Under the pieces are notes generated by a model. It saw nothing but the letters and a program-made list of their open reading frames with translations. It had not been told where the DNA came from and did not search any database. Made by a program: the position numbers and the translations under genes. Below are positions 51,057 to 52,299 of a stretch of 64,000 nucleotides of DNA, piece after piece. Each line of letters starts with the position of its first letter. Position 1 is the stretch's first letter. The stretch covers positions 1-64,000 of the forward strand of contig JACZTG010000010.1 of NCBI GenBank assembly GCA_022573815.1, written 5' to 3'. Origin of the DNA: Candidatus Neomarinimicrobiota bacterium. GTDB taxonomy: Bacteria; Fidelibacterota; SORT01.

Positions 51057-51129
51057 GGGGCCGTAGCTCAGCTGGGAGAGCGCTTGAATGGCATTCAAGA
51101 GGTCGTGGGTTCGACCCCCATCGGCTCCA
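51057..51129 (+). tRNA. tRNA-Ala (anticodon GGC)
   Basis: A 73-nt cloverleaf. The acceptor GGGGCCG/CGGCTCC contains the alanine identity pair G3-U70. The D-arm is GCTC..GAGC, the anticodon stem CTTGA/TCAAG has loop ATGGCAT (anticodon GGC at 51090-51092), and the T-arm is GTGGG-TTCGACC-CCCAT. CCA is not fully encoded. Its 3' part is the attachment-like site of the insertion that follows. Confidence 0.95.
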
Positions 51130-51309
51130 CAATGATAGCATCACTTGGTACGGTCACCAAGTTCTTGGACTGAAAAATATCACCCTGACACATTGGTTGT
51201 ATGTAGTAAGAAAACAAAGAAATTAAATTAAAATCGTATATCATCAATAATAACAAGTATATAAGACTTACAAAACTATATAAAAACATTGCTTAAAAGC
51301 AAAATAAAT

Positions 51310-51337
51310 TTGGTTTATGCTTAATATTTCTTATATT
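51310..51337 (+). promoter_or_regulatory. Putative promoter of the island ORFs
   Basis: TTGGTT (51310-51315), a 16-bp spacer and TATATT (51332-51337), 29 bp before the ATG at 51367, which itself has GAGGGG upstream. Confidence 0.35.
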
Positions 51338-51366
51338 TTAGCGATAATTATTAGCGAGGGGTAATT

Positions 51367-51600
51367 ATGTTGGATAACGAATTTAACTATTATAAGAAAA
51401 ACCAATCTGAACTTGTCAAAAAGTACGATGGCAAATATATCGTTATTATTGGCGATGAAGTAATTGCTGCATATGATAGCAAATCTGAGGCATATTCAAT
51501 TACCTCAAAAGACCATGAGGTTGGAACATTTCTCATACAGTATGTTTCGCAAGGTAAGAAAGACTTTACAGTAACCTATCATTCGAGAGTAATTGTCTAA
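51367..51600 (+). CDS. Small island protein, DUF5678-like
   Basis: 77 residues. FNYYKKNQSELVKKYDGKYIVIIGDEVIAAYDSKSEAY matches the short N-E-L-KKY-GKYVAI-x-GxxVV-x-D pattern of DUF5678-type proteins, which often sit beside retropepsin-like genes. There is no signal peptide or catalytic motif. GAGGGG supports the ATG. It overlaps the start of the retropepsin ORF by 8 bp, so both belong to one unit. Confidence 0.65.
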   Translation: MLDNEFNYYKKNQSELVKKYDGKYIVIIGDEVIAAYDSKSEAYSITSKDHEVGTFLIQYVSQGKKDFTVTYHSRVIV

Positions 51601-52199
51601 TTCAAAATCAAAAGACCTTGAAAGCAACCCGATTCAGGCATTTACAAAATTATATAATGGATTAGCGCGAGAAATTTTAACTGAAATTGCATTATATCCA
51701 TATGTGGATGTTCCAGACTTTTCTAAATATATTCGATTTGATGCAATTTGGGATACTGGGGCTACTTCGACATGCATTACACCAAATGGTCGTTCAGTCC
51801 CTCGGATTAAAATCATCTGGAAAAGTGGACGTAATAGGTATTGGTGGGACTGAGGAAGATGCAGATACCTATTTCCTAAATGCTGTGCTTAGAAATAATT
51901 TACATGTTCCTGAGCTAGAAGTAGTTGAAGTTAAAACAATCAGTGGAGCAGATGTTCTGATAGGAATGAATTTGATAACAATGGGTGATTTCGTAATTAC
52001 TAGCCACAACGGAGAGACAGTGTTTACATATCAAACACCATCGCAAGGGGAAATAGACTTTGAAGTGGGAAATAAAAATAAAGCAATCTATGTTGGCGAA
52101 AATATTAACGACGATGACCCATGTTATTGTGATAGTGGGGAAAAATATATAAATTGTCATGGAAAACAGAAAATAAAACGCACTAACACTCTAACCTAA
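51593..52199 (+). pseudogene. Retropepsin-like aspartyl protease with SEC-C tail, frameshifted
   Basis: The first frame (TTG 51593, overlapping the previous gene) gives FDAIWDTGATSTCITPN, the aspartyl-protease active site (DTGA). It then runs out of homology and stops at 51853. The +1 frame continues logically with VVQSLGLKSSGKVDVIGIGG and SGADVLIGMNLI up to 52199. Dropping one base near 51793 joins the two into about 201 residues. The end, DDPCYCDSGEKYINCHGK, is a SEC-C type zinc-binding motif. So it is a one-base-disrupted gene, an assembly error, or programmed frameshifting. Confidence 0.7.
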
Positions 52200-52250
52200 A
52201 TTTAGTATATCGAAAAGAATTTAATAATATACATACGCTGTATATGTATA

Positions 52251-52299
52251 TTGAATGCCATTCAAGAGGTCGTGGGTTCGACCCCCATCGGCTCCACAA
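52251..52299 (+). repeat. Displaced 3' copy of tRNA-Ala (right attachment-like site)
   Basis: 49 bp matching 51084-51132 except for G to C at 52258, which is the middle anticodon base. It lacks the D-arm and 5' acceptor strand, so it cannot be a tRNA. It marks the right end of the insertion. Confidence 0.85.

Follow-up and report, generated by a model that had tools for sequence, protein, structure and literature searches.

How did the 3' half of a tRNA-Ala(GGC) gene come to stand twice around a pair of genes, neither of them an integrase, in a Candidatus Neomarinimicrobiota bacterium? In the 64,000-nt stretch of DNA analysed here (the window), ARAGORN predicts an intact tRNA-Ala(GGC) on the forward strand at 51057-51130 (Rfam tRNA, 62.5 bits). 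The part of this gene from tRNA position 28 to the 3' end, together with 2 bp beyond it, forms an attL-like left core copy (51084-51132) and recurs on the same strand as an attR-like right core copy (52251-52299), a displaced tRNA 3' half. The initial annotation had claimed such a recurrence 1,167 bp downstream, and BLAST confirms it: the direct repeats are identical at 48 of 49 bp over that spacing (E = 1.8e-19), a match far beyond a chance origin. The sole mismatch is the middle anticodon base, G51091, replaced by C in the distal copy, a change that would be expected where a displaced tRNA half has no function. The locus thus has an intact tRNA gene at one end and direct repeats of its 3' part around the insert, with the repeat starting inside the anticodon stem-loop, where a crossover region would lie. 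Just 3' of the tRNA, on the forward strand, is a weak hairpin that folds no better than shuffled sequences (ACTTGGT-ACGGTC-ACCAAGT, 51143-51162) and could possibly be a processing or termination signal delivered by the element. At the other end, a sub-threshold Rfam tmRNA match (52210-52299; 13.4 bits, E = 0.007) ends on the right core copy and is most likely caused by the tRNA-Ala half.

The island has a G+C content of 0.326, against 0.42 in its flanks. Its content had been given as two genes, and a DUF5678 gene and a retropepsin/SEC-C gene are indeed all that it carries; the retropepsin, however, is not one open reading frame. The DUF5678 protein (77 aa, 51367-51600, forward strand; Pfam PF18929, E = 6e-8) is 35-64% identical to 31 relatives and is predicted, with moderate confidence, to be a small alpha/beta structure; a PDB search with this model returned no match. 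Its stop overlaps the TTG start of the gene for a retropepsin-like aspartic protease with a SEC-C tail (51593-52199, forward strand), in which the SEC-C zinc-binding motif region (52116-52166, forward strand) matches Pfam PF02810 just under the curated cut-off (E = 0.0011). The active-site part (DTGATS) lies in the frame 51593-51853 and the flap/SEC-C part in the frame 51687-52199, and the two join only if one base is skipped at about 51782-51789 (CCAAATGG). This frameshift may be a sequencing error of the draft assembly. Programmed frameshifting was considered and rejected, given that other broken genes (L138, L158) are interrupted elsewhere and that some 30 relatives have an unbroken frame. 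The predicted fold of the protease matches the Rickettsia retropepsin APRick (PDB 5c9f, E = 3e-7). PADLOC gave only weak matches to the cargo; elsewhere in the window, a 566-aa reverse transcriptase ORF (727-2427) matches PADLOC RT_UG39, a candidate anti-phage DRT, over nearly its full length (E = 2e-159). A six-frame profile search detected no integrase in the island, in agreement with the initial annotation.

That annotation also found the cargo unusual, a view that does not hold: DUF5678-retropepsin, with or without SEC-C, is a widespread two-gene unit of several phyla and of phages too. A retropepsin match lies directly downstream of DUF5678 in 48 of 55 loci recovered from GTDB genomes, mainly of Bacteroidota and Ignavibacteria/Chlorobiota, with some in Spirochaetes, candidate phyla and others, and the pair is mostly a separate unit flanked by unrelated genes. 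The DTGA and GM..GDF motifs are kept in 29 retropepsins, and 17 of 32 retropepsin frames examined have a SEC-C motif. A Leptospira phage carries the pair with a diverged DUF5678, and on a phage-like contig two 68-bp direct repeats of non-tRNA sequence, spaced 1,084 bp apart, enclose it (L137, 3846-4997); a pattern search for the cargo found none in viral contigs, and none was found in plasmids. A general link to tRNA genes was rejected: at a few of the 55 loci a tRNA gene is found within about 1.2 kb, but these loci are not flanked by tRNA copies. Individual loci showed further peculiarities. In one (L068, 603-2257, genome G134) the pair faces a tRNA-Gly whose 3' end runs directly into a GIY-YIG-like ORF. 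In two Prevotella-type genomes (L176, L179) repeated regions of 90-181 bp surround the pair, which suggests cassette-like arrays. In a Falkowbacteria contig (L143, 6218-6799) an in-frame stop falls within the SEC-C tail of an otherwise intact retropepsin. Our guess is that the two genes form a mobile module of an accessory or defence-like kind, with DUF5678 acting alongside the protease or regulating it. The locus draws attention to a two-gene module that is uncharacterised and widely transferred: DUF5678 followed by a retropepsin, in many cases SEC-C-tailed, and present in phages as well.

Relatives of the window's genome (G000) were compared at family level and beyond, none of them of the same genus, and hence the comparison bears on absence from relatives and shows no within-species empty site. 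In G002, of the same family, tRNA-Ala(GGC) is followed by a methyltransferase gene and then by the epimerase gene found in the window, with no second tRNA half; in G018 and G059, of other families, there is no second tRNA-Ala(GGC) half within 10 and 5.5 kb, respectively. In G001, two 123-bp partial copies of another type follow tRNA-Ala, and the contig ends there. Of 245 genomes in the phylum, four have DUF5678, and the other family members lack it. The lack of a tRNA-half copy in G002, G018 and G059, taken with this rarity of DUF5678, marks the segment as a foreign insertion in the window's lineage; inheritance of the same insert by all related genomes, which the initial annotation named as the pattern that would speak against insertion, was not seen. 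Among the genomes compared, neither a larger version nor a tandem partner was found at tRNA-Ala, nor a second copy of the window mini-island. Contig breaks beside tRNA genes were also considered as a sign of strain variation, a by-eye count that was not decisive.

We consider it probable, at about 0.77, that a tyrosine recombinase gave rise to the 1.17-kb segment by inserting a small foreign element site-specifically in the 3' half of tRNA-Ala(GGC), with the integrase now absent. The element would have brought a new tRNA 3' half that kept the gene intact, displacing the original half to the far end as the right core copy, and the integrase would have been supplied in trans or deleted since. 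Insertion at the tRNA 3' half with reconstitution, as initially proposed, accords with the crossover in the anticodon stem-loop, the foreign composition, the absence of a copy from relatives and six parallel cases in the phylum.

These cases come from six genomes in which 195 tRNA genes were surveyed, each for nearby copies of its own 3' part, in the stretches around the listed tRNA genes. The survey covered the window's genome (37 tRNA genes) and G001-G003 of the same family, usually to about 4 kb downstream, a range in which larger islands would be missed, and G059 and G018 of other families to about 10-20 kb. The search yielded seven mini-islands, 1.2-3.2 kb in size and with copies no shorter than 41 bp, and in all of them the copy starts at tRNA positions 25-32: at tRNA-Ala(GGC) (1,167 bp) and tRNA-Lys(CTT) (2,024 bp) in the window's genome, tRNA-Arg(CCT) (1,350 bp) and tRNA-Met (3,152 bp) in G001, tRNA-Pro(CGG) (1,520 bp) in G002, tRNA-Leu(TAG) (2,463 bp) in G059 and tRNA-Met (2,924 bp) in G018. 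Their cargoes vary and include radical SAM, cyclic-nucleotide-binding, MtlR-like and beta-lactamase-family proteins as well as unknowns; none of the seven has a full integrase. The isoacceptors checked in sister genomes had no other such copy, the downstream DNA being short for several tRNAs. The survey shows that very small integrase-less insertions recur at the tRNA loci of this group, in about 1 in 28 of the tRNA genes examined.

Smaller arrangements were seen as well. On contig 27 of the window's genome (L090), a 19-bp exact copy of the 3' end of tRNA-Ser(CGA) lies 1,029 bp downstream of it, with a 205-aa ORF of unknown family between, possibly a further mini-island with its crossover in the T arm. 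In G002 (L032, 4698-5204), a small tRNA-bounded unit consists of a tRNA-Ser copy whose T-loop holds a palindromic insert, then a GIY-YIG-like ORF and an intact tRNA-Ser. About 15 of the 195 tRNA genes have short-range partial copies, and at several loci (L247, L262, L256, L031 at 2700-2925, L032 at 4698-4830, L231, L242) these are tandem copies 68-555 bp from the parent, with the anticodon arm or T-loop replaced or interrupted by a G+C-rich palindrome such as TCCCGACACACATGTCGGGA; displaced pieces of tRNA may be places where REP-like elements settle.

Tyrosine integrases bind arm sites close to their core site. In four of the seven mini-islands, a short sequence is repeated in tandem at intervals of exactly 11 bp in the DNA 45-55 bp to the left of the right core: GGTCACC twice in the Lys island, TGGCACA twice in the Arg island, GCTACAC/GTTACAC in the Met island of G001 and ACTGCAC/ACCGCAC in the Leu island. 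At the threshold used, the background at this lag is 0.045 per end, and no end reaches the threshold at lags of 9, 10, 12 or 13; a binomial estimate for four of seven ends is about 1e-4, uncorrected for our having seen the pattern beforehand. G018 serves as a positive control: downstream of its tRNA-Lys come a full integrase gene and two occurrences of GGAAACATAGCGGAAACA at an 11-bp lag. The GGAAACATAGCGGAAACA repeat returns about 80 bp ahead of another tRNA-Lys half, which lies at a distance of 37.6 kb and has a second integrase gene beside it. Lag-11 repeats like those of this island indicate an end structure common to mini-islands and integrase islands. The right end of the window island has no lag-11 tandem repeats. 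A GGTCACC common to its left end and to the right end of the Lys island was set aside as too short to mean much. With neither tandem repeats nor an integrase remnant in the window copy, its link to a tyrosine integrase rests on its anatomy and on the parallels. That the window's genome has no candidate integrase besides XerC/XerD-like genes and a fragment likewise weighs against the tyrosine-recombinase reading. The missing arm-type repeat and the frameshifted protease gene suggest that it is an older, probably immobile copy, and for the same reasons we lean, between the two options first offered (mobility in trans or mobility lost), to lost.

Two versions of this tyrosine-recombinase insertion differ in where the integrase went. 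The version at roughly even odds is that a larger integrase-bearing island lost internal DNA by deletion and persists as a fixed scar. In a profile search, the tRNA-Met mini-island of G018 gave an integrase remnant (E = 6e-11), and the left end of this mini-island is similar to that of the autonomous tRNA-Lys island which G018 also carries; the frameshifted cargo and missing arm repeats of the window copy fit such decay. On the other side, that search detected no integrase trace in the remaining six mini-islands, and the cargo fits tidily inside the two ends, with nothing left over from phage or transfer genes.

Possible, though we hold it only tentatively, is that the segment was a cargo-only cassette: it would never have had an integrase, and integrases directed at this tRNA, from phages or larger islands, would have moved it in trans. 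The mini-islands are small and hold one to few genes, six of the seven lack any integrase trace, and both ends are kept, with the arm-like right-end repeats kept in four. Moreover, the two island-bearing genomes G000 and G001 show no integrase beyond XerC/XerD-like genes and a fragment: the window's genome (96% complete) encodes two XerC/XerD-like recombinases of full length and a C-terminal fragment of 101 aa, no other candidate integrase and no serine or resolvase-type recombinase, and the only two full-length integrase matches in G001 are, judged by score and length, XerC/XerD-like too. Integrase matches are more numerous in G002, G003 and G004, several of them beside tRNA-Leu(CAA), tRNA-Sec or tRNA-Lys. 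Against the cargo-only version, the one integrase remnant is what decayed autonomous islands would leave, no second copy of the same mini-island was found, and the window copy lacks arm-like repeats. The broader proposition, that the phylum hosts minimal cargo-only tRNA cassettes (1-3 kb, one to few genes, arm sites at both ends) inserted and excised wholly in trans by passing integrases, strikes us as rather unlikely; if true, such cassettes would be the counterpart of MITEs or integron cassettes for tRNA-directed integrases.

A local tandem duplication of the tRNA end, through replication slippage or other repair, with two genes invading later, is improbable. Short tandem partial tRNA copies do exist here, the pair after tRNA-Ala in G001 among them, but these differ in type, being closely spaced and interrupted by palindromes, whereas the mini-island copies begin within a narrow range of tRNA positions, enclose other genes and occur at six tRNA kinds. 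An integron-type gene cassette, suggested by the small size and single transcription unit, is very unlikely, as the repeats are tRNA halves, apparently not attC sites, and there is neither an array nor an integron integrase.

The interest of the find lies in the recurrence of units of 1-3 kb, nearly gene-sized, at many tRNAs of one phylum, and in whether such units are moved in trans; the mini-islands supply concrete ends for deciding between mobility in trans and fixed scars. Islands that have no integrase and lie between att copies go by the name of CIMEs (cis-mobilizable elements), elements that stem from an ICE or IME or are mobilised through accretion with one, decayed ICE/IME remnants among them (PMC5704250). 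The window island likewise has attL/attR-like copies of a target RNA gene and no integration or transfer genes, but it is far smaller, at 1.17 kb and two genes, and no integrase-bearing element adjoins it in tandem. In Dehalococcoides, 15 ssrA islands without integration modules have been described (PMC3146451); the target here is a tRNA, and the Dehalococcoides recombinase is of the serine type. Additive flexible genomic islands at tRNA genes are known from marine and freshwater bacteria, namely Actinomarinales (PMC7771536), Methylopumilus (PMC10872708) and Alteromonas (PMC4119200). There too, small gene cassettes, each ending in a direct repeat of the tRNA 3' end, target tRNA genes, while here there is a single cassette per tRNA, at many different tRNAs, with no array. 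Tycheposons of Prochlorococcus (PMC10872708) share the tRNA borders and use tyrosine recombinases, but at 4-200 kb they are much larger than the window island, which carries no recombinase. The cargo protease resembles APRick (PDB 5c9f) and other bacterial clan AA proteases in its fold and DTGA active-site motif, and differs in its pairing with DUF5678 and its frequent SEC-C tail. Having no integrase gene within, the window island is not filed as an autonomous tyrosine-integrase island. It is best filed, with att function putative, as a remnant of a tyrosine-integrase insertion that would in principle be mobilizable, either CIME-like or one "cassette" of an additive tRNA island. Since integrase-less att-bounded islands and small tRNA cassettes have both been described, it is therefore a new and unusually small member of an already known kind.
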